Shown here: positions 583 through 41,217 of the stretch, piece by piece
How positions within the stretch are numbered: the first letter of the stretch is position 1
Layout of the letters: each line of letters begins with the position of its first letter
NCBI GenBank assembly: GCA_016283175.1
Contig: JAEEMK010000056.1
Span: 1-41,217 of the forward strand
DNA length: 41,217 bases
Reading direction: 5' to 3'
Source of the DNA: Bacteroidales bacterium
Lineage (GTDB): Bacteria; Bacteroidota; Bacteroidia; Bacteroidales; P3
Program-made: the position numbers and the translations under genes
Notes under the pieces: model-generated
The model's database searches: none
The model's input: the letters and a program-made list of their open reading frames with translations, nothing else
What the model was told of the DNA's origin: nothing

Positions 583-589
583 GCGCGCG

Positions 590-648
590 GCCGCCCGGTT
601 AAAACGACACCTACCCCCGTTTTTCCCTGTCATATGTACAGTATTTGT
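590..648 (+). repeat. Direct repeat, copy 1, ending in a truncated palindrome arm
   Basis: The 59 bp from GCCGCCCGGTT to GTATTTGT recur at 688-746 with two differences (A/G both times). The right end, CATATGTACAGTATTTGT, is the outer third of the left arm of the palindrome at 725-827. In this copy the arm then breaks off into unrelated sequence (CACAAGCTCC). It looks like a tandem duplication in which this copy lost the rest of the palindrome. Confidence 0.85.
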
Positions 649-687
649 CACAAGCTCCGGTGGAGCGCGTGGAGAAGCCTGCGCGCC

Positions 688-746
688 GCCGCCCGGTTAA
701 GACGACGCCTACCCCCGTTTTTCCCTGTCATATGTACAGTATTTGT
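688..746 (+). repeat. Direct repeat, copy 2, leading into the intact palindrome
   Basis: Second copy of the 59-bp repeat at 590-648, offset by 98 bp. Here the sequence continues into the full palindromic element. Confidence 0.85.
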
Positions 747-827
747 ACAGTATATGTACAGTATATGTACGCTTCAGAAGCGTACAAATACTGTACATAT
801 ACTGTACAAATACTGTACATATGACAG
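725..827. repeat. Palindromic element 1 (about 100-bp inverted repeat with 11-bp internal repeats)
   Basis: Left arm 725-774 and right arm 778-827 are reverse complements over 50 bp with a single mismatch, around a 3-nt centre (CAG). Each arm starts at CATATGTACAG and holds three consecutive 11-bp units of the type TGTACAGTATN, then TGTACGCTT. The same design occurs at 12708-12806 and 41123-41217. It does not end in a T-run and is not placed like a terminator, because rpsA already has one at 549-582. Function is unknown. It could be a REP/MITE-type dispersed repeat, a protein-binding array or a structured RNA. Confidence 0.92.
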
Positions 828-1103: not shown

Positions 1104-3914
1104 ATGAAAACAATAAGATTATTAGCAGCAGTCGCAATGTTGGCAATACTGTGCAACGTAGGCAACGCGCAAACCAGACCTACCTACCCGCAGAATGAGA
1201 ACTGTCCGGGACTGAAGAACCCCTCTAATTTCACCTTCGGCGGAGGTTGGACAGGATATACAGGCGGTTCGGGCACCAAGCAAAGCAATCTCAGCACCTG
1301 CACAACACCAGGTTACAGTGCACTCACACAGGTACCGAGCGCCAGCCAGCTGGAAAGCCAGGCCACCTCGTCGTCGTGCTCGGGCAACAGTTCCAGCTCG
1401 CAAAACATTGACGGTCAGGCTGACTGCTCAAAGCGTTTCGTTATCAAAGGCGGAAACAACACTTCGCAGCTCGGCGACCCCGCCAACGGCGGCCAGCTGA
1501 CCTATCTGCCTCCCGACACATCGTACCACACCTCAATACGCCTGGGTAACTACTGCACAGGCGCCGAAGTGGAGCAGCTTACATACCAGATGACCATCAA
1601 CCCCAACAACGCTATGGTTGTTATATGGTACGCTATGTCACTTCAATATGCAGGCCACCCGACAGGCCAGAACCCCGAATTCTCGATTATCGTCGAGAAA
1701 CAGCAAAAGAATGCCCAAGGCAATCCTGTCTATGATGCCAACGGCAACCCCGTATGGGAACTTGCCGGCCAGTCGATGTGCTACATCAAAGAGGCACCGA
1801 CATCATCGCAGCTGAACAACCTGCCAGCCGGAATGCACAACTACAACAGCCAAAACATCTGGAAAGAGTGGAACAAGGTTATGGTCAACCTCTACGACCT
1901 GATGTATCAGAATGTGCAAATCAAAATCACCGCCGGCGACTGCTCACAGCACGGCCACTACGCAGCCTGCTACTTTGCCGGTGAGTGCCAGCCTATGAAG
2001 CTGAGCGCCAACGGCTGTGCAGCAGGCGAGTCGAACGCTGTGGCTCTCATAAAGGCTCCCAAGGGTGCCGTCAGCTATGCCTGGTATCGCAGCAAGACCG
2101 GCAAACTGACCGGCGACGACCGAAGCAACGACAACAGCTATGTGCTGATTCAAGGTGAAACGAACGACAGCCTGGGCTGCATCGTCGACCACTTCATCCG
2201 CACTGACAACCTCGACACGGTGACACAGAGCACATTTATGTGCAAGATGACCACCGTGATGAACGAATCCTACCCGATTGTTTCGAGCATCTTCACCGAC
2301 GTGGGAAACACCAAGCCGACCATCCACATCGACAGCGCCCTCGACTGCAACGCCGGCATCACACTGACCGAGCTGAGCTACACTCCCTATGCTCCCGACG
2401 ACACCAACCAGGTTGACCCCACAGCAACCATATGGAGATACTACACAACCAACCCGCCAACCGACCAGAGCCTGTTCCACACTGACACCGGTGCCGTTTC
2501 GAGCTGCACCTTCAACAGCGCCAGCAACAACTACAGCGTGAAAGTGCGCACCAGTGCTGTCGACCGCACCTGCTGGAACGAGAAAACCATACCTATACGT
2601 ACCGTCAAAAGCCCCATACCACGCGTAATGATTGACCGCAACAACCGTTGCAAGGGCGACACCGTGACTCTCACCGACCTGACACCGCAATCGGGCTACC
2701 ACCGCTGGACGTTTGCATCGCCCGATACAAGCTACGAGACACAGATGCCCGTGACGCAGATGATCGTGGACACCACCACCACCGTAACGCTCCGCACCCG
2801 CAGCAAGGACTACTATATGGCCGACACCACAGGCGACGGTATTGTGGAACGTGTGTACTGCTATTCCGACACAACATTCACCATCTTTGTGCAGGATTAT
2901 CCCAAGCTGACTGTTTCGGGCGACACAATAGTCTGCAACGGCGACCAGTCGAACGTGACGGTGACGAGCGAAAACGTCAACAACTGCACCTACAACTGGT
3001 ATCAGGTGATGAACGGCACAACCCCGGTTGTGGAGAACAATGACCATCTGGTGACCAGCATCTCGGCCGACCGCCGCTACTATGTCAAGGTCACCAGCCC
3101 ATTCGGCTGCATCAGTTGGGACAGCATAAACCTCTATCTTGTCAACCCCGACTTGAGGATTCTGGGCGAAAAGGATAAGATATGCACCGGCGACTCAACG
3201 ACACTGATTGCCGGCCGCGCAGCCACCTTCACCTGGACTTCCAACCCGCCCGACCCCGTTCTGAACAACGCCGTCAACGATTCGGTCATCACCGTCTCGC
3301 CCGACGTCACCACCATCTACACCGTCGTGGGACACGGCACCAACAACTGCAGCACCACACCGCTGTCGAAGAAAATCACAGTCTATCCCTATCCAATTAT
3401 GCAAGTAGGCCTTACACCCGACTATATTGACTCGGAGAACCCGTCGGTGCAGTTTGCCGACCTGTCGGAAAACGGCACCAGCTCGCTGTGGAACTTTGGC
3501 AACGGCAACACCTCGACAACACGCACCGTTGTGTTCACCTTCACCGACCTGAGCCAGGATTCCATCCTCATCAGCCTTGTCACCGCCAACGCCATAGGAT
3601 GTACCAACGACACCTCGTTCTACATCCCCGTGGGCATCTTTGCAGTGTGGTTCCCCAACGCCTTCACGCCCAAGCTGGAGACCAACAATACATTCAAACC
3701 ATTCACGGCCAACAACCTCGAAGACTACGAGCTTTACATCTTCGACCGCGGCGGCAATATGGTCTTCTCAACCACCGACATTGAAGAGGGCTGGGACGGC
3801 ACCTACAAAGGCAACGACTGCAAGCAGGGCAGCTACGTCTACATTGCCAAATACCGCCGTCAGGGCATAGAGCGCCTGATGTCGCAGAAAGGCACACTGA
3901 CACTGATACGATAA
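1104..3914 (+). CDS. Secreted T9SS cargo protein with type B sorting domain, paralogue 1
   Basis: A 936-residue exported protein. Residues 1-23 are a Sec signal peptide (MKTIRLLAAVAMLAILCNVGNAQ). Residues about 24-400 form a Cys-, Asn- and Ser-rich region I do not recognise. The middle and later parts look like Ig/PKD-type beta-sandwich repeats, for example the segment containing SENGTSSLWNFGNGNTST before the C-terminus. The last 85 residues are a gliding-motility-associated C-terminal domain (T9SS type B sorting signal, TIGR04131-like): VWFPNAFTPKLETNNTFKPF, then LYIFDRGGNM, then EEGWDGTYKGNDC and GSYVYIAKYRR. It is therefore probably exported through the outer membrane by T9SS and acts at the cell surface or outside. 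A near-twin follows 24 nt downstream. The ligand or function of the N-terminal region is unknown. Confidence 0.88.
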   Translation: MKTIRLLAAVAMLAILCNVGNAQTRPTYPQNENCPGLKNPSNFTFGGGWTGYTGGSGTKQSNLSTCTTPGYSALTQVPSASQLESQATSSSCSGNSSSSQNIDGQADCSKRFVIKGGNNTSQLGDPANGGQLTYLPPDTSYHTSIRLGNYCTGAEVEQLTYQMTINPNNAMVVIWYAMSLQYAGHPTGQNPEFSIIVEKQQKNAQGNPVYDANGNPVWELAGQSMCYIKEAPTSSQLNNLPAGMHNYNSQNIWKEWNKVMVNLYDLMYQNVQIKITAGDCSQHGHYAACYFAGECQPMKLSANGCAAGESNAVALIKAPKGAVSYAWYRSKTGKLTGDDRSNDNSYVLIQGETNDSLGCIVDHFIRTDNLDTVTQSTFMCKMTTVMNESYPIVSSIFTDVGNTKPTIHIDSALDCNAGITLTELSYTPYAPDDTNQVDPTATIWRYYTTNPPTDQSLFHTDTGAVSSCTFNSASNNYSVKVRTSAVDRTCWNEKTIPIRTVKSPIPRVMIDRNNRCKGDTVTLTDLTPQSGYHRWTFASPDTSYETQMPVTQMIVDTTTTVTLRTRSKDYYMADTTGDGIVERVYCYSDTTFTIFVQDYPKLTVSGDTIVCNGDQSNVTVTSENVNNCTYNWYQVMNGTTPVVENNDHLVTSISADRRYYVKVTSPFGCISWDSINLYLVNPDLRILGEKDKICTGDSTTLIAGRAATFTWTSNPPDPVLNNAVNDSVITVSPDVTTIYTVVGHGTNNCSTTPLSKKITVYPYPIMQVGLTPDYIDSENPSVQFADLSENGTSSLWNFGNGNTSTTRTVVFTFTDLSQDSILISLVTANAIGCTNDTSFYIPVGIFAVWFPNAFTPKLETNNTFKPFTANNLEDYELYIFDRGGNMVFSTTDIEEGWDGTYKGNDCKQGSYVYIAKYRRQGIERLMSQKGTLTLIR

Positions 3915-3938
3915 ACCAACTTTGAAAGGGAAAAAGCT

Positions 3939-6749
3939 ATGAGAAAAACATTCTTTCTTATAATCGCACTGGTGTACCTGTGCTGTGCAGGCAACGCGCA
4001 AACCAGACCCACCTACCCGCAGAATGAGAACTGTCCGGGACTGAAGAACCCTTCGAATTTCACCTTCGGCGGAGCCTGGTCAGGATATACAGGCGGTTCG
4101 GGCACCAAGCAAGGCAATCTCAGCACCTGCACAACACCTGGATACAGTGCACTCACACAGGTACCGAACGCCAGCCAGCTGGAAAGCCAGGCCACCTCGT
4201 CGACGTGCTACGGCAATAGCTCCGGTTCGCAAAATATTGACGGTCAGGCCGACTGCTCAAAACGTTTCGTTATCAAAGGCGGAAACAACACTTCGCAGCT
4301 CGGAGACCCCGCCAACGGCGGCCAGCTGACCTATCTGCCTCCCGACACATCGTACCACACCTCAATACGCCTGGGCAACTACTGCACAGGTGGCGAAGTG
4401 GAGCAGCTTACATACCAGATGACCATCAACCCCAACAACGCTATGGTTGTTATATGGTACGCAATGTCACTTGAATATGCAGGCCACCCGGCAGGCCAGA
4501 ACCCCGAATTCTCGATTATCGTCGAGAAACAGCAAAAGAATTCACAAGGCAATCCTGTCTTTGATGCCAACGGCAACCCCGTATGGGAACTTGCCGGCCA
4601 GTCGATGTGCTACATCAAAGAGGCACCGACACAATCGCAGTTGAGCAACCTGCCAGCCGGAATGCACAACTACAACAGCCAAAACATCTGGAAAGAGTGG
4701 AACAAGGTTATGGTCAACCTCTACGACCTGATGTATCAGAATGTGCGAATCAAAATCACAACCGGTGACTGTTCTCCACAGGGTCACTATGCAGCCTGCT
4801 ACTTTGCCGGCGAGTGCCAGCCTATGAAGCTGAGCGCCAACGGCTGTGCAGCAGGCGAGTCGAATGCCGTGGCTCTCATAAAGGCTCCCAAGGGTGCCGT
4901 CAGCTATGCCTGGTATCGCAGCAAGACCGGCAAACTGACCGGCGACGACCGAAGCAACGACAACAGCTATGTGCTGATTCAAGGTGAGACGGACGACAGC
5001 CTGGGCTGCATCGTCGAACACTTCATCCGCACCGACAACCTCGACACCGTGACACAGAGCACCTTTATGTGCAAGATGACCACCGTGATGAACGAATCAT
5101 ACCCGATTGTTTCGAGCATCTTCACCGACGTGGGAAACACCAAGCCGGCAATCCATATCGACAGCGCTTTGAACTGTCAAGCAGGCATCACTCTGATGGA
5201 CAACAGTTTTACTCCATACGCTCCCGACGACACCAACAAGGTGGACCACGATGCAACAGTGTGGAGATTCTATTCGAGCAACCCGCCTACCGACCAAACC
5301 CTTGTCGGAACCTACACCGGCGACACCGTTTCACATTTCTACACCAACGGTGGCAACAACTACAGCGTAAAGGTCCGCGTTCGCGCCATTGACAGCACCT
5401 GCTGGAACGAGAAAACCATCCCCATACGCACCATCAAGCCGCCAGTACCACAGATAACCCTGCAGCGCGACAGCCTGTGCGAAGGCGACACCATAGTGGT
5501 ATACAACAGCACACTTGGCGCTGCATATACCGAATGGACCATCCTCGGCAGGGAAGGCGACACCACTCACACCATCACTCCGACCACGGTGGGAAGCTTC
5601 CGTTTCGATACCACCTCGCTGGTTCAACTTCACACACGCAACAACATTCACTACCAAGCCGACACCAACACTGACGGTATTCTTGACAATGTATACTGCT
5701 ATGTCGACACCAACATAACCGTCCACGTCGATGAATACCCCGTACTTGAGGTCACTGGCGACACTATCGTCTGCAACGGTACACAGGCCATAATAAACGT
5801 AAACTCACAGAACCCACAGACCAGATACGACTGGTTTACCTCTATGAGCAGCAACAACCCGCTGCAAAGCAATACCGCTACATTGACCACTATGCCGACA
5901 CACGACGAACGATACTATGTCAAAGCACGCAGCCCATTCAACTGCATCAGCTGGGACAGTATCAACATATATGTTGTCGACCCGCAGCTATCGGTACCCA
6001 TAACGAAAATGTGCGAGAACGACCAAGTGAAACTGTACGCCTCTAACGCATACAGCTACACCTGGACCTCGATGCCCGACGACCCGTCAATGGCAGGCCA
6101 GACCAGCAACGACACACTGACTGTCTCGCCACAAACCACCACAACATACACACTGGTAGGACACGGAATGAACAACTGCTCGGCCGACCCGCTGACAGCC
6201 ACCATCACAGTGTTCCATCATCCCGTACCAACATTCGAGATGAGTCCCTACTTCATCGACTCGGAGGAGCCTGTGGTGACATTCCGCGACGTATCACCGG
6301 GTTCGACATACACATTCTGGGACTTTGGATCGGGCAACACCTCCAACGAGGTTCAGGTACGCCATACCTTTACCGACCTGAGTGAAGATTCCGTTCTCAT
6401 AAAAATGACAACCGGCACCGGTGGCGAATTGCAATGCAACAGAGACACTTCGTTCTATGTTCCCATTGAACTGTTCGCCGTATGGTTCCCAAACGCATTC
6501 ACTCCAGAAGAGAGTACTAACAACACCTTCTCGCTCTTCACCCACAACAATCTTGAATTCTTCAGCATACACATCTATGACCGTCACGGCAACCAAATAC
6601 TATACTCCAACGACCAGAACTTTGTTTGGGACGGTACCTACAACGGCCACCAATGCCCTCTGGGTGTGTATATCTACACCTGCACCTACCGTCGACCCGG
6701 CACAACAGACATCGTGACGCAACGCGGTACGGTGACGCTGCTGCGTTAA
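3939..6749 (+). CDS. Secreted T9SS cargo protein with type B sorting domain, paralogue 2
   Basis: This protein is also 936 residues long. Its signal peptide is different (MRKTFFLIIALVYLCCAGNAQ). From GNAQTRPTYPQNENCPGLKN on, the next roughly 390 residues are almost identical to paralogue 1, in DNA as well as protein. After about residue 405 the two diverge to ordinary paralogue similarity. The C-terminus again carries a type B sorting domain (VWFPNAFTPEESTNNTFSLF, then IHIYDRHGNQ, VWDGTYNGHQCP, GVYIYTCTYRR). An AAAGGGA purine stretch precedes the ATG. The gene lies 24 nt after paralogue 1, so the two are probably co-transcribed. The conserved N-terminal half suggests a shared binding or structural role, while the diverging C-terminal half may be under different selection. 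Confidence 0.88.
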   Translation: MRKTFFLIIALVYLCCAGNAQTRPTYPQNENCPGLKNPSNFTFGGAWSGYTGGSGTKQGNLSTCTTPGYSALTQVPNASQLESQATSSTCYGNSSGSQNIDGQADCSKRFVIKGGNNTSQLGDPANGGQLTYLPPDTSYHTSIRLGNYCTGGEVEQLTYQMTINPNNAMVVIWYAMSLEYAGHPAGQNPEFSIIVEKQQKNSQGNPVFDANGNPVWELAGQSMCYIKEAPTQSQLSNLPAGMHNYNSQNIWKEWNKVMVNLYDLMYQNVRIKITTGDCSPQGHYAACYFAGECQPMKLSANGCAAGESNAVALIKAPKGAVSYAWYRSKTGKLTGDDRSNDNSYVLIQGETDDSLGCIVEHFIRTDNLDTVTQSTFMCKMTTVMNESYPIVSSIFTDVGNTKPAIHIDSALNCQAGITLMDNSFTPYAPDDTNKVDHDATVWRFYSSNPPTDQTLVGTYTGDTVSHFYTNGGNNYSVKVRVRAIDSTCWNEKTIPIRTIKPPVPQITLQRDSLCEGDTIVVYNSTLGAAYTEWTILGREGDTTHTITPTTVGSFRFDTTSLVQLHTRNNIHYQADTNTDGILDNVYCYVDTNITVHVDEYPVLEVTGDTIVCNGTQAIINVNSQNPQTRYDWFTSMSSNNPLQSNTATLTTMPTHDERYYVKARSPFNCISWDSINIYVVDPQLSVPITKMCENDQVKLYASNAYSYTWTSMPDDPSMAGQTSNDTLTVSPQTTTTYTLVGHGMNNCSADPLTATITVFHHPVPTFEMSPYFIDSEEPVVTFRDVSPGSTYTFWDFGSGNTSNEVQVRHTFTDLSEDSVLIKMTTGTGGELQCNRDTSFYVPIELFAVWFPNAFTPEESTNNTFSLFTHNNLEFFSIHIYDRHGNQILYSNDQNFVWDGTYNGHQCPLGVYIYTCTYRRPGTTDIVTQRGTVTLLR

Positions 6750-11794: not shown

Positions 11795-12619
11795 TTAATT
11801 ATTTATGTTACTACCGATTATCGTGTCGTAGAGTTTGTTGATTTGCTCAAAAAACACTGTTTTATCGGGATTGTACTCAACAATGTGACGTTTGTTCTCG
11901 CGAGCGAAAGCCACCAACTCCGGATCTGCATTCGGCGAAGCGATGACAATGCCGTGGGCATATGTTATTGCCGCCTTAGTCAAGGTCATATAATCCAGAT
12001 TTTCAAACAGTCGCAAATCCTTTGCCGTAGCGCCGTCGGCTTTGAGTTTGCGTTCCATATCGGGACCGAAATCACCTTTAAAAGCATCATTGGTGATCGA
12101 AAAAACAGTCTTGGTACCCGAAAAGAAAGCATTTTCCTTGTTGATGCGACGCAAATAGAATGGAATCATACAAGAAAACCAGCCTGTAAAATGAATCAGG
12201 TGCGGCTGCCAGGCAAGTTTGCGCACTGCCTCAAGTGTGCCACGGCCGTAGAACAGAATTCGCTCGTCGTTGTCTGCAAAGAACTTGCCATTCTCGTCAA
12301 AGAAACCTTTATGACGCGTAAAATACTCTTCATTGTCAATGAAGTACACCTGTATGCGAGCAGCAGGAATAGAGCCTACTTTAATGATGAGCTGATGGTC
12401 GGCATTGTTGACGATAAGGTTCATTCCCGAAAGACGTATGACCTCGTGCAACTGGTTCTTACGCTCGTTTATATTGTTGAAACGAGGCATAAAAACCCTT
12501 ATTTCGCGGCCCTTTTCCTGTGCAAAAGCAGGCAGATAGCGGCCTAAATATGAATTTTCAGACTCAGGCACAAAAGGCATAATCTCCTGATTGACAAAAA
12601 GTATTCTTCCCTTACCCAT
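11795..12619 (-). CDS. Short glycogen/starch synthase-like protein (GT5 catalytic domain only)
   Basis: A 274-residue protein resembling the N-terminal Rossmann domain of GT5 glycogen/starch synthases: an N-terminal LFVNQEIMPFVPES stretch, a VFMPRF motif, and LIHFTGWFSCMIPFYLR in place of the usual DWH-type segment. Full-length GlgA is about 480 residues, so the C-terminal nucleotide-sugar half is missing. This short form is recurrent in Bacteroidota and is often annotated as glycogen/starch synthase. Whether it has synthase activity is unclear. It is the first gene of a leftward run with DUF4270. A Bacteroidota -7 box lies 25 nt upstream. Confidence 0.8.
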   Translation of the reverse strand: MGKGRILFVNQEIMPFVPESENSYLGRYLPAFAQEKGREIRVFMPRFNNINERKNQLHEVIRLSGMNLIVNNADHQLIIKVGSIPAARIQVYFIDNEEYFTRHKGFFDENGKFFADNDERILFYGRGTLEAVRKLAWQPHLIHFTGWFSCMIPFYLRRINKENAFFSGTKTVFSITNDAFKGDFGPDMERKLKADGATAKDLRLFENLDYMTLTKAAITYAHGIVIASPNADPELVAFARENKRHIVEYNPDKTVFFEQINKLYDTIIGSNINN

Positions 12620-12707: not shown

Positions 12708-12806
12708 GGCATATGTACAGTATTTGTACAGTATATGTACAGTATATGTACGCTTTGAAAGCGTACATATACTGTACATATACTGTACAAATACTGTACA
12801 TATGCC
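12708..12806. repeat. Palindromic element 2 (perfect 49-bp inverted repeat)
   Basis: Arms 12708-12756 and 12758-12806 are exact reverse complements over 49 bp with a single central G. Each arm reads GGCATATGTACAG, then 11-bp TGTACAGTATN units, then GTACGCTTT. It is almost identical to the elements at 725-827 and 41123-41217. The flank TTTTCCCTG just outside is shared with element 1. It lies between the divergent GT5 and recX genes, 88 bp upstream of the GT5 start codon. Confidence 0.93.
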
Positions 12807-13052
12807 TTAGAAGGTTTCTTTAAAGCATCATTTTCAACAAGTTAAGTAATTGAAAAGCGTACATATAGACTTATAGCTTTGACATACAAATATTTACAAA
12901 GGCTATTTTTAGCTTGTTTTCCTTTGGAATTCGCACATAAAAACCTGATTGGTTTAACTTTGACTATCCAAATACAATGCAACAGCTTTGATGTGGTGCA
13001 TTTTTTATCTCCGACTGTTTTGCAAAAAAAATAATTGCGAAAAAACCGAAGA
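12807..13052. other. Intergenic region with a degenerate palindrome fragment
   Basis: This region holds no supported gene. At 12851-12867 the string TGAAAAGCGTACATATA matches the centre and inner right arm of the palindromic elements with one extra A, so it looks like a remnant of another copy. TAACTTTG at 12955-12962 is an isolated match to a -7 box without a well-spaced -33 element. Confidence 0.5.
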
Positions 13053-13084
13053 GTTGTGTATAATCGAATTTTTTTGTATTTTTG
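13053..13084 (+). promoter_or_regulatory. Probable promoter of recX
   Basis: GTTG (13053-13056), a 20-nt spacer and TATTTTTG (13077-13084) match the Bacteroidota TTTG-N19-TAnnTTTG consensus closely. Transcription would start near 13090, giving a leader of about 80 nt. Confidence 0.6.
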
Positions 13085-13169
13085 CCGTGTAAAATTACTT
13101 CCTTGTCACTGCGCAACATTAAGCATATCAGCGCATTATAATAGTATTAACATTTTCGAAACAACCCTA

Positions 13170-13658
13170 ATGTCCGACAAATACAAATTCACCGATGCAG
13201 ACAAAGCTTTCGTATCGAAGGCTGAACAATATTGCGCCGCTTCCGAGCAATGCCGCACATCGGTAAAGGAAAAATTGCTGGCGTGGGGTGCCGACAGGGA
13301 ACTGGCAGGACGCATTGTAGAATATCTTGTCGCAAACGAATATATTGACGAGGCACGCTATTGCCGCATCTATTGCGAGTCGAAACTGCACCTGCAAAAG
13401 TGGGGACGCATAAAAATCAACTATATGTTACGCAACAAGCGCATTGACAATCGCATCATCGCCAACGCTCTGCAGGAAATTGACTCAACGCAGTACACCG
13501 AGACACTACGTTCGCTGGCAGAAAGCAAAATGCGCACTCTTCACGACAGCGACCCTGTGAAACTACGTTCAAAACTATCGTCATTCCTAGCATCGCACGG
13601 TTTTGAGATGTCGGAAATACAGACAGTGGTGCAGAATATCGGAATTAACAACGACTAA
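13170..13658 (+). CDS. recX: Regulatory protein RecX
   Basis: A 162-residue, mainly helical protein of the RecX family, which binds RecA filaments and modulates recombination. Typical signature stretches are present: REYL-type AGRIVEYLVANEYIDEARYC, then LQKWGRIKINYMLRNKRID, and a repeat of the three-helix unit towards the C-terminus. I chose ATG 13170 because MSDKYKFTDADKAF begins the family homology and the preceding in-frame 45 codons overlap the promoter region. recA is not in the window. The next gene follows 18 nt later, so the two may be co-transcribed. Confidence 0.85.
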   Translation: MSDKYKFTDADKAFVSKAEQYCAASEQCRTSVKEKLLAWGADRELAGRIVEYLVANEYIDEARYCRIYCESKLHLQKWGRIKINYMLRNKRIDNRIIANALQEIDSTQYTETLRSLAESKMRTLHDSDPVKLRSKLSSFLASHGFEMSEIQTVVQNIGINND

Positions 13659-23814: not shown

Positions 23815-23921
23815 AATGAAACAATAAATCGCAGCACAAAACTTACTTAAAACATAAAAACTTCTTTCCAACTCACGATATTCGACTCTAAAGCATAGTA
23901 TTACAATCATTGACTACAAAG

Positions 23922-25361
23922 ATGAATTTAGGACAGGTATATACCAAACGAATTGTGGCAGACTATATGGTTGGTCTGTTTACACTGAAAGGTAAGGCCA
24001 AAATGCTTGACCCTTGTTTTGGACATGGCGTCTTTATCAATAGTGTGCTTGAAAACACAGAGTTCCTTATTGATGGTGTTGAAATTGACGAAAAGTCATT
24101 CTCCCTATTCGAGAATCCTAATACACGACGTTGCTCGTTAAAGAATTGTGATTTCTTTGACATCGAGGATATGTATGACGGCATTATTATGAATCCTCCA
24201 TACGTTCGTCAAGAGGAGCTGAATGCCTTGCAGCCGCTTGGGGTGAGCAAGCAAAAATTGCAAACGTCTTGCGGTCTTATGACTATATCGAGCAAGGCTA
24301 ACCTCTATATGTATTTTTTCTTGAGATCTATTCTCTTGCTTCGTGATGGAGGTGAGTTGATCGCAATTTTCCCAAATTCCTGGACGAACACTCCTGTTGG
24401 CAAACAATTCTATGAGCAGATTTGCCATTATGGATGTATCACCGATTTCATAAATATTGAAGGCGAAGCTTTTGAGGGTTCGCCTATGGTGGATGTCTGT
24501 ATCTTGAAATTCGTAAGGGGAGAATCTGGCAACACCAAATATAAACAAATGACAATATGCCCTACAGGTGTATTGTCTATCGCATCATTAAACAAGCCGG
24601 GAGAAAATAAAACAACAGGTCTTGTCGAACTCCAAACGGTAGCAAAAGTCAGGCGTGGAATAACAACAGGATTTAACAAGCTCTTTGTAAATCCGACGCT
24701 TTTCACGCGAGACCACCTCGTAGAAATACTCTCATCCCCCAAAAACATAAAGGGATACTCAACGAATCATTGTAAATTAGACACGATGCTTGCAATTAAA
24801 GACGGTGACGTACTTAATGAAGATGAGACCAACTATTTGGAGAACTGCTCCAGTGTCATTCTGAAAGAGGGTAAACCTCAGACGCTGAAGTCTATGATTG
24901 AAAAGGGGCAACCTTGGTATTATATCACTCTTCCAGAGACGGCTCAGATTATCTTCTCATATATAGTCAGAAGCAATCTAAAATTTGTGCTGAATGAAGG
25001 ACGATGTAACGTTAGAGATAATTTCTATATGATAAGTTCTTCACACAATCAATACCTGCTTCTTGCATTATTGAACAATTATCATGTATTTAGGCAATTG
25101 GAACTTTGTGGAAAGAGCTATGGGAAAGGAGTTTTGAAGTTGCAGACATACGATATTTCCGATATAAAGATACCTCATCCTACAGCATTGTCAAAAGAGG
25201 ATACAGACAGGCTTATCAAACTGTCTGAAGATTTGGTGGCAACTTCAAATGAGGGCAAAATCGAAGCGATTAGTGACATTCTGAATACATATTATGGCGT
25301 AGAAGACGCCAAAGATAAATTTTTAGAACTGAAATCAAAAAGACTCACAAAATATGAATAA
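23922..25361 (+). CDS. N6-adenine DNA methyltransferase, TaqI/Eco57I-like
   Basis: A 479-residue class gamma N6-adenine methyltransferase. The N-terminal motif X is GQVYTKRIVADYM, the SAM-binding motif I is LDPCFGHGVF (residues 29-38), an acidic motif II follows in VEIDE, and the catalytic motif IV is NPPY (91-94). The C-terminal half, ending near residue 430, would be the target-recognition domain. ATG 23922 is chosen because motif X needs the N-terminus there; a TTG four codons upstream is unlikely. The enzyme transfers methyl groups to adenine in a specific DNA sequence. It overlaps the next gene by 8 bp, so the two are translationally coupled. It could be the modification partner of the large downstream protein. 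Confidence 0.88.
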   Translation: MNLGQVYTKRIVADYMVGLFTLKGKAKMLDPCFGHGVFINSVLENTEFLIDGVEIDEKSFSLFENPNTRRCSLKNCDFFDIEDMYDGIIMNPPYVRQEELNALQPLGVSKQKLQTSCGLMTISSKANLYMYFFLRSILLLRDGGELIAIFPNSWTNTPVGKQFYEQICHYGCITDFINIEGEAFEGSPMVDVCILKFVRGESGNTKYKQMTICPTGVLSIASLNKPGENKTTGLVELQTVAKVRRGITTGFNKLFVNPTLFTRDHLVEILSSPKNIKGYSTNHCKLDTMLAIKDGDVLNEDETNYLENCSSVILKEGKPQTLKSMIEKGQPWYYITLPETAQIIFSYIVRSNLKFVLNEGRCNVRDNFYMISSSHNQYLLLALLNNYHVFRQLELCGKSYGKGVLKLQTYDISDIKIPHPTALSKEDTDRLIKLSEDLVATSNEGKIEAISDILNTYYGVEDAKDKFLELKSKRLTKYE

Positions 25362-26376
25362 TACAACAGTCAGCCTGTTTTCAGGCGGTGGAGGTCTCGA
25401 CTTGGGATTCAAGCAAGCAGGCTTCAATATAGTCTGGGCAATAGACAATAATGAAGATGCCGTCAATACCTACAAACGTAATGTTGGTAGCGAGATTCTT
25501 TGTGGAGACATAACAGCCATCGATATAGAAAAGATACCTCAGGCAGACATTGTTATAGGTGGACCTCCATGCCAGTCTTTTTCTTTGGCAGGAAATCGTC
25601 ATTGTGATGATGAGCGAGGCAGACTTGTATGGCGTTATCTTGACATCATCAAGCGAGTTTCACCCAAAGCGTTTCTGTTTGAAAATGTCATCGGGTTAAT
25701 TTCTGCAAAAGACAAGCAGGGTAACAAGATACTCGACAACTTGCTAAAAACCTTTTCAGAGATTGGCTATCATATTACTTGGCATTTAGTTAATGCTGCC
25801 GACTATGGTGTGCCACAAGTAAGGAAGCGTGTAATTATCGTTGGTCTTAAAGAAGGAACATTTGAATTTCCACAAACAACACATAACAAACTCGGAACTG
25901 ACGGCAAGAAGAAATATGTCAGTGTAGAAGAAGCCATAGGTAATCTGCCTGAGGCAGGAAAAGCTAAGGGTATCTCAGAGCACGATTACCCTACGATGAG
26001 CAAACTCGATCAATATATTTGTGCTCATGTCAAGCCTGGCGGTAACTATATGGATATTCCTGACGATGTTCCTTCAGTAAGAATAAAACGACTCAAACGT
26101 GATGGTGGGCATACGACGTGTTATGGTAGGATGCTTCCAAAGAATCCCTCTTACACCATCAACACATATTTCAACCGTCCTAATGTGGGCTGCAATATCC
26201 ACTACAAGTACGACAGAATTATTACGCTTAGGGAGGCTATGCGTTTGCAGACTTTTCCCGATAGCTATGAATTCGTGTCAAAATCCAAGCAAGGGAAAAA
26301 CCTGATTGTGGGGAATGCTGTACCTCCACTTTTGGCATACGTGCTTGCCACTAAACTAAAAGATTACCTCAATTAA
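25354..26376 (+). CDS. DNA (cytosine-5) methyltransferase
   Basis: A 340-residue C5-cytosine methyltransferase. The expected motifs are all present in order: I FSGGGGLDLGF (9-19), IV GGPPCQSFSLAG with catalytic Cys 73, VI ENV (110-112), VIII QVRKR near 155, and X GNAVPP near the C-terminus. The target-recognition region lies between VIII and X. No Vsr-type repair endonuclease gene is adjacent. It overlaps the upstream adenine methyltransferase by 8 bp and precedes the type IIG-like gene by 10 nt. The combination of m5C and m6A enzymes in one operon may protect the two strands of one asymmetric site, or may represent stacked systems. Confidence 0.95.
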   Translation: MNNTTVSLFSGGGGLDLGFKQAGFNIVWAIDNNEDAVNTYKRNVGSEILCGDITAIDIEKIPQADIVIGGPPCQSFSLAGNRHCDDERGRLVWRYLDIIKRVSPKAFLFENVIGLISAKDKQGNKILDNLLKTFSEIGYHITWHLVNAADYGVPQVRKRVIIVGLKEGTFEFPQTTHNKLGTDGKKKYVSVEEAIGNLPEAGKAKGISEHDYPTMSKLDQYICAHVKPGGNYMDIPDDVPSVRIKRLKRDGGHTTCYGRMLPKNPSYTINTYFNRPNVGCNIHYKYDRIITLREAMRLQTFPDSYEFVSKSKQGKNLIVGNAVPPLLAYVLATKLKDYLN

Positions 26377-26386
26377 AATTACTCCT

Positions 26387-28954
26387 ATGTGGCTTAAAAA
26401 CTCAGATAAAGAAGTCGAGTGCTTTCACCCAGTTTGCAAAGAGGCTTTTGAAGCAGCTTTAAAACAACTGAACCTTGATGACACATACGAGGTGCAACAC
26501 CATCGCTATGTTGGTTCCATTGAAATGGACTTGGTTATCGCTAATAAGACAACAAATAAAATATTGTGTGTCATAGAGGTAAAACGAACTATGGCAGCAG
26601 TAAATAGTACGCGATATCAGTACCAAGCAATGAGTTATGTTCAGTCATTGCGTGAAGCAGAACTGGAAAGTCGATATTATATTCTGACTAATCTTGAAAG
26701 CTCTTGTCTGTTCAAATTTGACAGGAACCGCCCAGATGTTTATGAGCAGATTATTGAACCTGGCATTTCTGTAAACCACCGTTTTTCAGATGTGGGTAAG
26801 GAACAGTTTATGGCTGACTTGATTCAGCAGTATGTAGGCTACATAGACATTATACTGCATAACAGCGGCAAATACCTGCTATCATTCAAACAGTTTGCTG
26901 ACGAGATACAAGACAAACTCGATTCAGACATTGAATGGAAGTCAGCTTTGGTCGCGCTTTTCTATGAATATATACGTGGCTCTTTCACAAAAGTTGACAG
27001 GGGTAATCTTAGGACTATAGCCCAGCTTTCAAACAAATTAGACTTGATTTGTCGAGAGGGTTTGAAAATCAATTTCAAAGACATCTTTACTCTTCCAGAA
27101 TTGAGGTCTAGCGAGAGGGATGTTAAGACGAACAAGTCATTACTTCAGCAACTCTTTGAATTAGGGAAGACATACGTAGATGCTGATGAATTGGCCAGTG
27201 TGATGCACAAGGTTGTTTCAGAGGAACACAAACATGAGGGTGAGGTTCCAACAGACACAGAATTGGCCACATTAATGCTTTGCCTTGTAAAGTATGTAAC
27301 AGGAGATTTGAGTGACCTCGACAAAATAATGGATCCCGCTGCTGGTAGTGGAAGTCTATTGTGTGCTGCAATAAGCATTTATGACCATCTTCAACCTTCG
27401 CAGTTGGTGGCCAATGATATCAATAAGAAATTGCTGCAACTTCTCTCTCTGCGTCTTGGTTTGAAATTCGCCACAACAATCGAAAAGAATAATACTGCCA
27501 AGATTACAGCCAAGAGCATTTCAGAATTATCCGTTAGTGATTTTGACAATGTCAAGGTCATCATAATGAATCCACCTTATCTTGCCGCTACTGGCGTGAA
27601 ATGCTCTGAAAGAAAAGCAGAACTTTACAAGAGAATACGCCAGCTGAAAGGTACTGAGCCTACAACAATAAATGGGCAAATGCCTCTTGAAGGTCCTTTC
27701 GTAGAACTTGTTTCCACCTTGGCAAAAGATGGTACTGTTATTGCCATTATTCTTCCCAATACCCACTTTACAACCAAGGGTGAAGCAAGTAAGGCTATAA
27801 GAAATATGCTATTAAACGACTTTGGCCTGCAAATGATATTCAACTACCCTCAGGAAAAACTATTTGAGGAAGTGGCTCAGAACACGTCGATCGTTATTGG
27901 TGTGAAAGGCTCACACGCCGAGAATATCCGCTACCTTTATAGTAATGAGGTTGTATCGCAAATTGACACAAGTAGCATTGGAACCGTCTTGTCTTCTGAG
28001 TTTAGTCTGGATGGACTTGCTAACATTGACAACCAGTTTGAGGGATGTCTTATGACCAGAGAAGAACTTGTGCGGATGGTCGATTTAGGTTGGCAGATTG
28101 GTAATATGGCGAGACGCGATGCACAGAACTTTATTCAGGCAAATATTACTTCTTCAAATCGGTTAATTACTTTGTCTGACAGTGAATACAACAATTATAG
28201 ACGTGGTAAGATAGGTAATGATGGGTGTACAGATTTGCTCTATCTGAATCATAAGAACCCATTCTTAATAGAAGCTCGCAAGCAATTAAGGACTCATCTC
28301 GCTGCTGGTCTTAACAATGCCAGATTCGAGAATCTGCTCATAGGTAAAGGCGAATCATTGTTCTTCAACGTAGATGGTATGACGGATCGTCAGATACGAA
28401 AGGTGGTGGATATGTTCCTTGCGTCAGAATCAGGGAAAGTCAAGAAACAACGAAAAGACAAGAAAACACCTAAAGATTACATTGATGTTTTGAAAAAAGA
28501 ATCCAGAAACGTTTCACCAGCGTATAGCGTTATGCTCCCACGTATGATTAGGAGCAAAGGACGTGTATTTATTAGTACCCAACCCACCTTTGTCTCAACG
28601 AACTTCTTTGTTATTCAAGCAGACGAGGAGCGATCGAAAATTCTTGCATCCTGGTTCTCTACTATTTTCTATCAGTTGGAATGCGAAGCTTACGGTAATA
28701 ACAGAAGAGGTCTGCGAAAACTGGAGAAAGAAGATTACGAACCGCTGCACGTTCCCATCACAACGGAACTGACGGAAGATGAAAAACAGCGTATCATTTC
28801 TACACCAATATCGGAATTTGTAAATCTGCGTTCACCACAAGCACGTGAAGTTGATAGAGTCTGGGCAGAAATATTGTTTGGTGAAAGTGCTGACGAATTA
28901 ATTGAAGAAGCGATAACTCTTATCCCTATCTTGGTTGCGGACAGAGAAAAATAA
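26387..28954 (+). CDS. Type IIG-like restriction-modification protein (PD-(D/E)XK nuclease plus N6-adenine methyltransferase)
   Basis: An 855-residue multidomain protein. Residues about 35-110 contain a PD-(D/E)XK-like core: Asp 48 in EMDLVI and Glu 64-X-Lys 66 in VIEVKR. A helical segment follows. The methyltransferase has motif I MDPAAGSGSLL (315-324) and catalytic NPPY (395-398), of the HsdM/N6_Mtase type. The C-terminal 300 residues would be the target-recognition part. Nuclease, methylase and specificity in one chain is the type IIG (Eco57I-like) arrangement. No helicase domain is present, so type I or type III is unlikely. It is the last gene of the modification operon. Nuclease activity is inferred from few residues and is less certain than the methyltransferase. 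Confidence 0.78.
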   Translation: MWLKNSDKEVECFHPVCKEAFEAALKQLNLDDTYEVQHHRYVGSIEMDLVIANKTTNKILCVIEVKRTMAAVNSTRYQYQAMSYVQSLREAELESRYYILTNLESSCLFKFDRNRPDVYEQIIEPGISVNHRFSDVGKEQFMADLIQQYVGYIDIILHNSGKYLLSFKQFADEIQDKLDSDIEWKSALVALFYEYIRGSFTKVDRGNLRTIAQLSNKLDLICREGLKINFKDIFTLPELRSSERDVKTNKSLLQQLFELGKTYVDADELASVMHKVVSEEHKHEGEVPTDTELATLMLCLVKYVTGDLSDLDKIMDPAAGSGSLLCAAISIYDHLQPSQLVANDINKKLLQLLSLRLGLKFATTIEKNNTAKITAKSISELSVSDFDNVKVIIMNPPYLAATGVKCSERKAELYKRIRQLKGTEPTTINGQMPLEGPFVELVSTLAKDGTVIAIILPNTHFTTKGEASKAIRNMLLNDFGLQMIFNYPQEKLFEEVAQNTSIVIGVKGSHAENIRYLYSNEVVSQIDTSSIGTVLSSEFSLDGLANIDNQFEGCLMTREELVRMVDLGWQIGNMARRDAQNFIQANITSSNRLITLSDSEYNNYRRGKIGNDGCTDLLYLNHKNPFLIEARKQLRTHLAAGLNNARFENLLIGKGESLFFNVDGMTDRQIRKVVDMFLASESGKVKKQRKDKKTPKDYIDVLKKESRNVSPAYSVMLPRMIRSKGRVFISTQPTFVSTNFFVIQADEERSKILASWFSTIFYQLECEAYGNNRRGLRKLEKEDYEPLHVPITTELTEDEKQRIISTPISEFVNLRSPQAREVDRVWAEILFGESADELIEEAITLIPILVADREK

Positions 28955-35843: not shown

Positions 35844-35872
35844 CAAATATACATATAATTTTTGATTTTCAA
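35844..35872 (-). promoter_or_regulatory. Promoter of the coiled-coil/RyR-channel operon
   Basis: On the minus strand TATATTTG (35844-35851) is an exact TAnnTTTG box. TTG at 35870-35872, 18 nt upstream, fits the -33 element and overlaps the sbcC stop codon. This separates the operon from sbcC. Confidence 0.65.
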
Positions 35873-38800
35873 GGCTCATATACAATTTCCACCTTGCTGC
35901 GCCCCTCGCCCACCTTTTTGAGTTTTATTTTGTTGGGAATGCATCCCAGCAACTCTTCGCGATGTGAAATAATGCCTACACGACGGTCACTTTGGCCGCT
36001 TATCTCACCAAGACGACTCAACGTGTTCATCACGCTGTCGAGGCACTCCTGATCGAGAGTGCCGAAACCTTCGTCGATGAAGAGAATGTTGACATTCATA
36101 TCAGGACGGTTCAAGGATGACAAAGCGAGCGAAAGGGCGAGTGAAATCATAAACTTTTCGCCTCCCGACAGCACCGCCGCGCTGCGCACCTCGTTGCGAT
36201 TGAAACGGTCCAAGACCAATATCGACAGATGCTCGTTCTCGGAATTGCAGGTCAACGTATAGCGATTGGTAATCCTCTTCAAATAATGGTTTGCATTGTT
36301 CAGCAGCGGTGTCAATATGTGTGTCTGCACCAAATTGCGGAACCTATCGCCATTCTCGCCGCCGAAGTACTTGTCCATCAAGTGCCAATGGTCGTTTTCC
36401 TTTTGTGCTTTTTTGTATTCCAGCTCTGCTGCATCAAGTTTTTTCTGATGCATCGCATTGGTTTCAAGTGTGGTTTTGGCCTTCGTATATAGTTCGGTGG
36501 CATCACGTTCACCAGCTTCGGCTTCTGCATACAGCCTTTCAAGCTCCACCTTGTCGGGCACTTCGTCGCCATCTGCAAGACCAAGTGCCTTGCGAGCCTC
36601 AACTATGGCGGCCAAAGCATCACCAAGACTCTTTTCCCACGCTTTGATGTTGCTTTCTATATCTGCGACGTATTTTCTTGCCGACGACACGTCATCACGT
36701 CTGGAAACCAAATCCACAAGATACTTTTCGTCCTTGCCGCTATGCTGACGCCATTGACTCAACACATCCTCGCAAGCAGCAATCGTTTTGCGACATTCTG
36801 CCAATGTGTTGTCGACCACGCTGCACAGCGACGACATTTCATTCCACTCTTTCAACGGATCGCTGCACAATTGCGGCATCACGTCGGCAGCGGTCCAATC
36901 GGAATGCTGCCTTGCGATAGAATCCTTGATGCCGTTAATGCTGTTCAAAAGGTCGCGCTGTCTGGCTTGCATAGCATCCGCCTCCAAGTAACTTTTTTTT
37001 CTTGCAAGATATTCCGACGACTCAGCCTTCAACTGCTCAACCGTTTCGTCGAGGTGTTCCTGCCAGCCGGGAAACCATAGTGCCAATCTCATTTCCAGCT
37101 GTTGGGAGTCCGCTTCCAAGTCCTGCTTAGCTTTCCTGGCTTTTTCCGCCAATTCGCTTATCCTGTCGGCATTGTGCTTTACACTTCCCTTGACCGAGGC
37201 CAGCCGATCCGTGGCAGCATTCAGCTTGTCGTCAAGCGGCTTTTTCCCCTTAAGTTTGGCATCCATTTCCTCCTGCAAATCAGACAGCATTTTGCGTTTC
37301 TTGTCAAGGGAAGCTTCCTGATCAGCCACTTGAAGCAGTTTGTCGGCAATGGCTTTGTCGACATCGCCGGTCTTGTCAATGCCTGCCTTGGCCATACGCG
37401 TGGCAAGAGCATCTCTTCCTCCTTCGACTTCATTGGTCAGTTTCCGCAATTGCTCCTCCTGCGATTTCACACGACTTTCCGCAGAGCCTACGGCACCTGT
37501 GGCTGCATTCAGTTCCGCCTGCACCTTCTCGACCTCTTCCTTTGTATGCCTGCGTTCCTCTTCGTATGGCGTCACCAGCTGGGCAAACTGTTCCTTAGTC
37601 AGAATAGTGTCTGCAATCTTTTGACCGCAGAGCGGACAGATGTCGGTATGCTCGTTGACAATCATCTGGCGAAGTTCGTCAAGTTTCTCGTCCAGACTTG
37701 CGTCGATGGCTGCCAGACGGCGCATAGCTTTCTCATAGGCACGCTGTGCCGTGGCGAAGCGTTCCGAAACCTCGTTGCGATTTTTTTTCTTTGACTCCAA
37801 TTCTTCTTTCAGCTTCGACAAAGCCGACTCCAACTCCTTTTGAGACTCCACCTTGACAATCCAAGTTTCATAATCCGCACGCAGCTTCTCGTAAGCCGCT
37901 TTGAACTGCAGAATGTTTTTTATGTCGGCATCCAGCTTTCGGGGGTCGAGTTCCTCTATTTTCTTCAGCACGCTGTCGACAGCATCCTGCACAGTCTTCA
38001 CATCGGCGGCGGCATCCGCTCTTTCCTTCTCGGCCGATGCCAGTTCTTTCGCGAGAGGCTCGACGCGTTCCTCAGCTCCAGTCTTCTCCCTGTGCAACGC
38101 TTCAAGTGCGGCACTGTTGCGTTGGTACTGCTCCATCTGCGAGCACACCGCGGTGGCTTCCGAATAAAGTCTGTCGCGCTCCTTGCGTTCCTCCAGCCAA
38201 TCCAATTCGACTTTCAGTTTTTCCGATTCGACTAAAAACACCCTCTCTCTTTCCGCCAGATCAGCCATCAGCAGGCCGCAACGGGATTTCAGTTCACCTT
38301 CCCTCTCCAAAGCATCGGCAAGAGCCTTGCGTTTTGCGCTCATCTCGTCCATACTGCGGCGCTCTTTTTCGGTTGCGTCCCAGTCGCGACAAAGGTTCCT
38401 CAACGACACAAACTCTTCGCCAGCCATCTCAGAACGAAGCGTTTCCAGATGCTTTTCCGAAACAGTTTTCCTCTCTATGCCGTCCAATATTTTTGTCACC
38501 AGTTTGATTTGGAAGTCCAATCCCTTCCTTCGCTGCGAAGCCACACTACGCTTTTCGTCCGCCTCTTGCAGCTGGTTTTCATATTGTTGGCGCACGTCGT
38601 CAGGGAAGACAAACCCTTCTGCTGTCCTATACGCCTTCTCGGCAGCAGTCGAAGCACCCTTTTTACGGTCGTAGATAGCGTGGACAGCTTTGCCATAGAC
38701 GGAGAATATTCTCGTATTCGTAAGCCTTTCCAATATGTCGGAACGTTCCTTTCGACCGCCACACAAAAAGTCGGCAAACTGACCCTGTGCAAGCATAGCC

Positions 38801-39318
38801 ATACGGTTGAACTGTTCAAAGTTCATTCCCACGGCGTTCTCGATAGCCTTTCCGCACTGTTCGCCCTCCAGAACATCCTTGTCACCCTCATACAAGAACC
38901 AGCGCCGATAACTGCGCAGCATACCCTTGGACTTCCTATAGCCAAGCTGCATTTTGGCACGATAGGTCACACCGTCGTTGCCCAAGAAGACAACCTCGCT
39001 GTAGCATTCGTCCTTTTCGCTGATTCCAAGGCGCGTATATTGCTCTATACTGGTAATGCTCATCTCGCTTCCAATGGACGTTGTGAAGGTGTTGCGCAGA
39101 CGGTTTTCGACACTTTTCACACGTGGCGTATTGCCATACAAAGCCATAGCTATGCCGTCGAGCAGCACCGACTTGCCAGTGCCTGTGTCGCCGAAAATGA
39201 GGAACTTTTGCGCTGCCTTGCCTGTGTCGGGATCAACAAGACCGGCGTCTTTCTCAAAATTGATGTCAGCCTTCTCAATCGAGGCGATATTTCTCAGGTG
39301 AAGCTCAAGTATTTTCAT
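35869..39318 (-). CDS. sbcC: Exonuclease SbcC (Rad50-like ATPase subunit)
   Basis: A 1149-residue SMC-like ATPase. The N-terminal Walker A is FGDTGTGKSVLLDGIAMALY. Long coiled coils flank a zinc hook (DICPLCGQKI, CPxC) near the middle. The C-terminal lobe has the signature LSGGEKFMISLALSLAL and Walker B ILFIDEGFGTLD. With SbcD it forms the nuclease that cuts DNA hairpins and protein-blocked ends. This is notable because large perfect palindromes occur in the same window. It starts in a 4-nt overlap with the sbcD stop. Confidence 0.96.
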   Translation of the reverse strand: MKILELHLRNIASIEKADINFEKDAGLVDPDTGKAAQKFLIFGDTGTGKSVLLDGIAMALYGNTPRVKSVENRLRNTFTTSIGSEMSITSIEQYTRLGISEKDECYSEVVFLGNDGVTYRAKMQLGYRKSKGMLRSYRRWFLYEGDKDVLEGEQCGKAIENAVGMNFEQFNRMAMLAQGQFADFLCGGRKERSDILERLTNTRIFSVYGKAVHAIYDRKKGASTAAEKAYRTAEGFVFPDDVRQQYENQLQEADEKRSVASQRRKGLDFQIKLVTKILDGIERKTVSEKHLETLRSEMAGEEFVSLRNLCRDWDATEKERRSMDEMSAKRKALADALEREGELKSRCGLLMADLAERERVFLVESEKLKVELDWLEERKERDRLYSEATAVCSQMEQYQRNSAALEALHREKTGAEERVEPLAKELASAEKERADAAADVKTVQDAVDSVLKKIEELDPRKLDADIKNILQFKAAYEKLRADYETWIVKVESQKELESALSKLKEELESKKKNRNEVSERFATAQRAYEKAMRRLAAIDASLDEKLDELRQMIVNEHTDICPLCGQKIADTILTKEQFAQLVTPYEEERRHTKEEVEKVQAELNAATGAVGSAESRVKSQEEQLRKLTNEVEGGRDALATRMAKAGIDKTGDVDKAIADKLLQVADQEASLDKKRKMLSDLQEEMDAKLKGKKPLDDKLNAATDRLASVKGSVKHNADRISELAEKARKAKQDLEADSQQLEMRLALWFPGWQEHLDETVEQLKAESSEYLARKKSYLEADAMQARQRDLLNSINGIKDSIARQHSDWTAADVMPQLCSDPLKEWNEMSSLCSVVDNTLAECRKTIAACEDVLSQWRQHSGKDEKYLVDLVSRRDDVSSARKYVADIESNIKAWEKSLGDALAAIVEARKALGLADGDEVPDKVELERLYAEAEAGERDATELYTKAKTTLETNAMHQKKLDAAELEYKKAQKENDHWHLMDKYFGGENGDRFRNLVQTHILTPLLNNANHYLKRITNRYTLTCNSENEHLSILVLDRFNRNEVRSAAVLSGGEKFMISLALSLALSSLNRPDMNVNILFIDEGFGTLDQECLDSVMNTLSRLGEISGQSDRRVGIISHREELLGCIPNKIKLKKVGEGRSKVEIVYEP

Positions 39319-41122: not shown

Positions 41123-41217
41123 GGCATATGTACAGTATTTGTACAGTATATGTACAGTATATGTACGCTTTAGAAGCGTACATATACTGTACATATACTG
41201 TACAAATACTGTACATA
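41123..41217. repeat. Palindromic element 3 (right arm cut by window edge)
   Basis: Left arm 41123-41170 starts GGCATATGTACAG and is identical to that of element 2 up to GTACGCTT. The centre is TAG. The right arm from 41174 is an exact reverse complement as far as the window end at 41217. About four more bases would complete it. The left flank does not share the TTTTCCCTG of the other two elements. Confidence 0.9.

Follow-up and report, generated by a model that had tools for sequence, protein, structure and literature searches.

The window analysed here, 41,217 bp long, is the entire contig C72 of an assembly, hereafter G000, that comprises 111 contigs and 2,249,148 bases. Besides a tandem pair of 936-amino-acid paralogues with the type IX secretion CHU_C domain (1104-6749), it carries a restriction-modification island with Eco57I-like, C5 cytosine methylase and BpuSI-like domains (23910-28954) and SbcC/SbcD-like genes (35869-40550, domains SbcC_Walker_B and Metallophos). 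The initial annotation had reported three palindromic elements between genes, and the sequence confirms them at the positions given in Table 1. Element 1 is placed between two same-strand genes (229-522 and 1104-3914), element 2 in a divergent gap (11795-12619 on the minus strand, 13035-13658 on the plus strand), and element 3 adjoins the SbcC/SbcD-like genes; nucleases of the SbcC/SbcD type cut long palindromes. The repeat unit TGTACAGTAT, searched with at most one mismatch, has 24 matches in the window, far over the 1.6 expected by chance, and none of 100 shuffled sequences reached this count. The remnant unit listed in Table 1 sits within the duplicated copy of the left flank and is the leftover of a lost array, and the G-rich module adjoining element 1 is a member of a cluster of 13 ends in G000.

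Table 1. Elements and associated features of the palindromic family in the window.
Feature	Position	Strand	Description
Element 1	725..827	.	Eight-GTAC core 734-818; arms disagree at one linker pair
Element 2	12708..12806	.	Eight-GTAC core 12715-12799; linkers all complementary
Element 3	41123..41217	.	Eight-GTAC core 41130-41214; outer right arm truncated by contig end
Remnant single unit TGTACAGTAT	635..644	+	From pattern search of the window
Duplicated left flank including first unit	583..648	.	Near-identical to 681-746 beside element 1
G-rich flank module adjoining element 1	649..733	.	Recurrent module of the family

The core of all three elements consists of eight GTAC over 85 bp. Its general unit, T-GTAC-NN-TA-NN, is 11 bp long and is repeated four times per arm, the two arms facing each other around a centre of 10-11 bases (11 in G000, 10 or 11 in G121). 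The 11-bp steps described initially were thus recovered, but an arm comprises three full units and a fourth GTAC within TGTACGCTT, hence four GTAC instead of three units; similarly, the perfect palindromy ascribed to the elements holds for the linkers of elements 2 and 3, which match in both arms, and fails at one linker of element 1. Outside the core comes an outer arm of about 16 bp, followed by flank modules of about 35-100 bp that recur beside elements and are not inverted copies of each other, the symmetry being internal to the element. From these modules and from the gap upstream of the tex gene, we estimate the element at roughly 200-350 bp, non-coding and intergenic. A flank profile built from 25 ends of G121 and G133 returned 27 matches, most of them its own seeds, 26 adjoining tabulated elements and one adjoining an untabulated element (L169), and it says little on copies elsewhere. 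Also recurrent beside G000 elements (L174 and others), once in tandem, is a G-rich flank module that encloses the inverted repeat CACAAG...CTTGTG. Among 89 elements of G000, 79 retain eight GTAC in register, eight retain seven, one six and one five; three more places (L053-L055) keep three GTAC only and look as if they were slippage products.

To the three copies of the window, a search of the whole genome added many more. Centres of the form TGTACGCTTNNRAAGCGTACA with up to three mismatches number 95 on each strand of G000, and an exact variant with a middle purine, which counts each element once, gave 90; the reversed-pattern control gave 0 in both cases. A six-GTAC palindrome with any linker was found in 8 of the 120 genomes of the genus (88 in G000, 61 in G121, 47 in G133, 45 in G025, 26 in G071, 23 in G086, 4 in G116 and 1 in G102), these counts being lower bounds since they come from fragmented assemblies. 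A one-arm TGTACA pattern with at most one mismatch occurs in 9 of the 120 genomes and adds G065, where arrays run into N or contig ends, and G100, where the array is of a different, one-sided type. At the level of the order, the strict one-arm pattern is present in 4 of 393 genomes, namely G000 and G121 plus two genomes whose arrays are one-sided. The annotated family of near-identical intergenic elements with phased GTAC cores therefore extends genome-wide, with about 95 copies in G000, and to further species, and is not confined to three copies without counterparts in relatives. At least 81 array stretches come from six MAGs labelled Bacteroidales or Bacteroidetes, four of which name sheep, goat or reindeer; the two remaining ones carry RUG numbers, which we take to denote rumen genomes. 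One of these, RUG12171, is probably G116, to judge from its linkers. Some bearers are gut bacteria of ruminants.

The linkers differ between species. They read AGTATW and some AGTACT in G000, AATAYW and AATAGT in G121 and G133, GGTATW, GCTATW and some AGTATW in G086 and G071, and GATAST and GTTATT in G116, while in G025 the two arms differ, one having AGTAYW or AGTACT and one GCTAYW. Genomes G196, G209 and G100 contain one-sided or tandem arrays, which were set aside on inspection. Those of G100 (TGTACANNCAG, 11-bp steps; L042 3708-3750 and L043 3391-3430) lie beside a CCCCCGGGGG palindrome, and together they are another small repeat of the genus; G209, from another genus of the order, has a long tandem TGTACGATAGA array with no mirror half (C123, L311 from about 1500).

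Bearers do not form a single clade on the tex tree, which is weakly resolved and needs five changes for the eight bearers (12 of 500 shuffles were as low); the non-bearer G033 falls beside G121 and G133 on it. The six highest tex identities all belong to bearers. The sole element of G102 (C9, L044 185-2685) lies in 2,501 bp that are 97.8% identical to G121, while the tex of G102 shares only 80% identity with the G071 query; this element is an import or a contamination, and the status of G102 as an independent bearer is doubtful. An origin from phages or plasmids was rejected, as matches were weak and partial (two plasmid records and one phage record); viral contigs contained no six-GTAC palindrome, and the 30 stretches found there by a TGTACA array scan were by eye unrelated and mostly one-sided. 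GTAC is not specially avoided in the rest of the genome (665 seen for 811 expected in G000, 170 for 214 in non-bearers).

A separate observation concerns the tetranucleotide CATG, which is almost eliminated from the element loci of G000 (6 for 1264 expected, in 326 kb), G121 (1 for 676), G133 (3 for 444), G071 (2 for 450) and G086 (4 for 365). The tex loci (L280-L285, L287) contain 0 in G000, G121, G133, G071, G086, G065 and G093, and those of 23 other genus members 6-23. CATG is normal in G025 (698 for 804 expected) and common in RUG12171, a MAG with arrays (31 and 38 in 8 kb; L050, L051). The loss of CATG nearly, not fully, coincides with bearing elements. In the window, CATG occurs five times (24024, 25083, 25568, 26026 and 27233), always inside the restriction-modification island, as would be expected of a recent arrival.

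The elements sit mostly upstream of genes. By our own crude codon-scored gene calls (a simpler caller pointed the same way), 188 elements from six species comprise 88 in divergent gaps, 58 in tandem gaps and 7 in convergent ones, besides 27 left unclassified and 8 that overlap called frames, whereas the other gaps of at least 100 bp in the same loci comprise 39 divergent, 151 tandem and 30 convergent ones. The adjoining genes present 243 starts, at a median distance of 249 bp, and 75 ends. This is the reverse of the placement of terminators, at 3' ends and in convergent gaps.

The elements also keep apart from one another. The 38 within-contig intervals of G000, which include the three reduced places, are at least 7,577 bp long, and none is below 7.5 kb against 15.1 expected under uniform placement, in a simulation that omitted one contig of unknown length. 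For G121, the shortest of 41 intervals is 8,329 bp, with none below 8 kb against 8.8 expected. A deficit as extreme was reached in none of 2000 simulations for either genome, and again in none of 2000 when placement was restricted to sites spaced about 4 kb apart (14.9 expected in G000, 8.7 in G121). The at least eight intervals of G025 (shortest 8.7 kb) are consistent with this dead zone, and the five of G071 start at 23.7 kb. Once the minimum is subtracted, the coefficient of variation is 1.00 in G121, that is exponential-like, and 0.82 in G000; past the dead zone, the G121 intervals are those expected of random insertion combined with a hard core, and those of G000 peak near 10-14 kb. Most elements lie in contig interiors, at a density of one per 16-35 kb within contigs, and an even coverage of the chromosome is ruled out for G121, where gaps reach 145 kb. 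Copies therefore avoid each other over kilobases, as under target immunity, with one exception in the sampled contigs of G133, where one of three intervals measures 4.9 kb and the others 9.1 kb. Because the G121 counterparts of that close pair (G133:C37, 12883 and 17768, L326) are 12.0 kb apart (L336, L164), a deletion between elements in G133 is a simple and likely account of it.

Many sites are common to several species. The gap upstream of tex holds the palindrome in G071, G086, G000, G121 and G133, and a half-element at a contig end in G065; no palindrome was found in this gap in the remaining 24 of the 30 genomes examined. In ten of 12 listed non-bearers, the neighbour gene has a start-like site 147-311 bp from tex, and in bearers the element itself lies beyond 220 bp. 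The tex element of G025, at a different distance and next to a different neighbour gene, is perhaps independent of the others. Alignment of the flanks of element loci yielded 32 cross-species pairs above the score cut, some of them aligned on a single flank and a few likely to be redundant. When 50 G121 elements were tried against ten sampled contigs of G133, 11 had a flank match longer than 240 bp, and for these a G133 element was in place in eight cases, the match ended at a contig end in one, and no element was near in two (306 and 318 bp). Sites are thus largely common to G121 and G133, which leaves recent movement a conjecture. Between the 50 elements of G121 and the 89 of G000, both flanking genes are common to six and one gene to 12 more, raw counts that may include chance sharing and, for the single genes, some short or weak matches.

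At eight orthologous pairs of different dialect, spread over five sites and including one pair that uses the G102 copy of doubtful status, all 256 GTAC positions are identical, which is partly built in as elements were found by GTAC patterns. The linker TA (96/96) and the T before GTAC (47/48) were not required by the search, and the other linker bases agree at 89 of 192 positions and the centre at 56 of 88. Between closer relatives, the core is kept only moderately better than the flanks, with identities of 0.90 versus 0.70-0.80 for eight G121-G133 pairs and 0.91 versus 0.82-0.90 for eight G071-G086 pairs. The repeats form a genuine family of high copy number, marked by species dialects and a sharp exclusion zone, of the dispersed intergenic palindromic or MITE-like kind.

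We tentatively favour, at somewhat less than an even chance, a MITE-like mobile element with an eight-site docking array as its core, which would have spread with target immunity and then been inherited. A DNA-binding protein would read T-GTAC-NN-TA in the array, and a trans-acting factor would have inserted copies of the element in gaps on the promoter side of genes. Protein sitting on an existing array would have barred new copies from the surrounding 8 kb or so; the sites would then have passed by descent, with arrays homogenised or selected inside each species. It is possible, though rather doubtful, that one dedicated protein of a novel type, docking at the arrays along the whole chromosome, both copies the element and polices its territory of about 8 kb, with a recognition dialect shifting together with the sites in each species.

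The main rival is a host function such as chromosome organisation, in which the arrays, perhaps a domesticated mobile element, would dock a nucleoid, segregation or domain-boundary protein and selection would keep them intact and apart; we regard this as a minority possibility. The recognition positions retained at orthologous sites, the 79 of 89 G000 elements with a full set of GTAC, the placement in divergent gaps and the interval peak of G000 all agree with such a role. The six-GTAC pattern is nevertheless missing from 112 of the 120 genomes of the genus, G121 tolerates gaps of up to 145 kb with a spacing that is otherwise random, G133 tolerates the 4.9-kb pair, and the core exceeds its flanks only moderately in the G121-G133 and G071-G086 pairs.

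A family of REP or REPIN type moved by a Y1 (RAYT) transposase, of the Bacteroidetes kind with atypical secondary structures, is unlikely. The Y1 domain PF01797 is encoded by eight of nine bearers (G100 left aside), one G025 element has a Y1-like frame about 0.9 kb away, and Bacteroidetes RAYTs of subclass 2.6, to which the available part of one source attributes atypical flanking structures (PMC6006769), may be linked to the elements. On the other hand, PF01797 is present in 73 of the 120 genus genomes and is missing from G086 (89% complete), which has 23 elements; no arrays tightly flanking Y1 genes were seen, and the REP tags described in the accessible text are GTAG or CGTC, not GTAC (PMC3733652). 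The REP-type Y1 transposase suggested by the initial annotation consequently appears not to be tied to the elements. The Mu-type domain PF09299 was found in none of the 120 genomes, in a search that is uninformative because its control was likewise silent. Neither the Y1 search nor the comparison of element flanks revealed a cognate transposase, element ends or a target duplication. The family also matched no described class: at the gathering score, Rfam found nothing in the window except one tRNA, plasmid and phage records gave only the weak, partial matches mentioned above, and a search of the openly accessible literature returned no description of this element.

Two further alternatives attribute the palindrome to base pairing between its arms, which we assessed by comparing the variable linker positions with those of arms shuffled between elements (300 shuffles). 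Arm linkers match beyond all 300 shuffles in G000 (78 elements, 0.792 versus 0.681), G071 (20 elements, 0.892 versus 0.671) and G086 (13 elements, 0.923 versus 0.740). Those of G121 (10 elements), which has an asymmetric centre, are slightly above the shuffled value (18/300), and the arms of G025 (19 elements) differ systematically (0.205 versus 0.493) with eight GTAC retained. Matching of the outer 16 bp shows no excess in G000 (82/300) or G071 (136/300) and is hardly above shuffles in G086 (45/300). Perfect cores make up 40 of 78 in G000, 12 of 20 in G071 and 9 of 13 in G086, versus 0 of 10 in G121 and 0 of 19 in G025. Since arm-linker matching varies in this way by species, eight GTAC plus TA are the common denominator of the family and perfect palindromy is not.

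A cruciform that would act as a supercoil sink in divergently transcribed gaps accords with the divergent placement and with a core hairpin predicted at about -40 kcal/mol on average in G000, yet is very unlikely, pairing in G025 being much weaker (-21.9 kcal/mol, 68% paired) despite eight GTAC. A transcribed RNA hairpin or two-way terminator, suggested by the nearly perfect long stem of G000, G071 and G086, was dismissed as the least probable explanation on gene context (7 of 153 classified elements in convergent gaps, with starts far outnumbering ends), on the lost linker pairing of G025 and for want of an Rfam match. The linkers covary in G000, G071 and G086 and do not in G025, and because its arms rarely match while eight GTAC are kept, the long RNA hairpin foreseen by the initial annotation was not borne out as a feature common to the family. 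For the same reason, we favour reading the core as a docking array. Of the functions first proposed, an array for a cooperatively binding protein is the prediction that fits best, GTAC and TA being kept and the bases between them varying by species.

Several known systems resemble parts of this picture. The parC locus of plasmid R1 is a plasmid centromere made of phased 11-bp direct repeats and likewise uses 11-bp repeats as a docking array, but it is present as one site per plasmid, whereas here dozens of mirror-symmetric sites are chromosomal. The DNA uptake sequences of Neisseriaceae, short motifs at about one per kb, provide a genome-wide motif with dialects that shift in concert between species; the present core is 85 bp and occurs once per 16-35 kb. 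MITEs and target-immunity transposons such as Mu and Tn7 share non-coding copies and an exclusion zone, and Mu cis-immunity is, in the sections consulted, a precedent for exclusion around existing copies (PMC7350765); they differ in having what the searches above did not identify here, a transposase, ends and a target duplication. REP, BIME and REPIN elements with their RAYT are palindromic, intergenic, of high copy and species-typed (PMC3733652, PMC6006769, both in part), but are 20-40 bp palindromes with GTAG/CGTC tags (PMC3733652, same extract), in contrast to an 85-bp array of eight GTAC repeats with no apparent Y1 tie. The nearest described repeat in habit is PINSR, also from Bacteroidales, a 188-bp repeat with 177 and 184 intergenic copies in Prevotella intermedia/nigrescens; from what the source gives in its accessible portion, it is known from few related species and about three quarters of its sites are common to two strains (PMC4755523). 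Its authors assign it neither function nor source and report no terminal inverted repeats, and that portion mentions neither a phased GTAC array nor a dead zone (PMC4755523).

The dead zone near 8 kb is recorded by dozens of natural copies per genome and is sharp in the two species whose intervals are numerous enough for a test; the few of G025 agree. If it reflects target immunity, genome sequences suffice to detect such immunity, with no need of a transposition assay. Because the dialect changes while the sites stay in place, comparisons between species can test for protein-DNA co-evolution, or for gene conversion among short repeats. Should the sites serve the host instead, they would offer an entry into the chromosome organisation of Bacteroidales.
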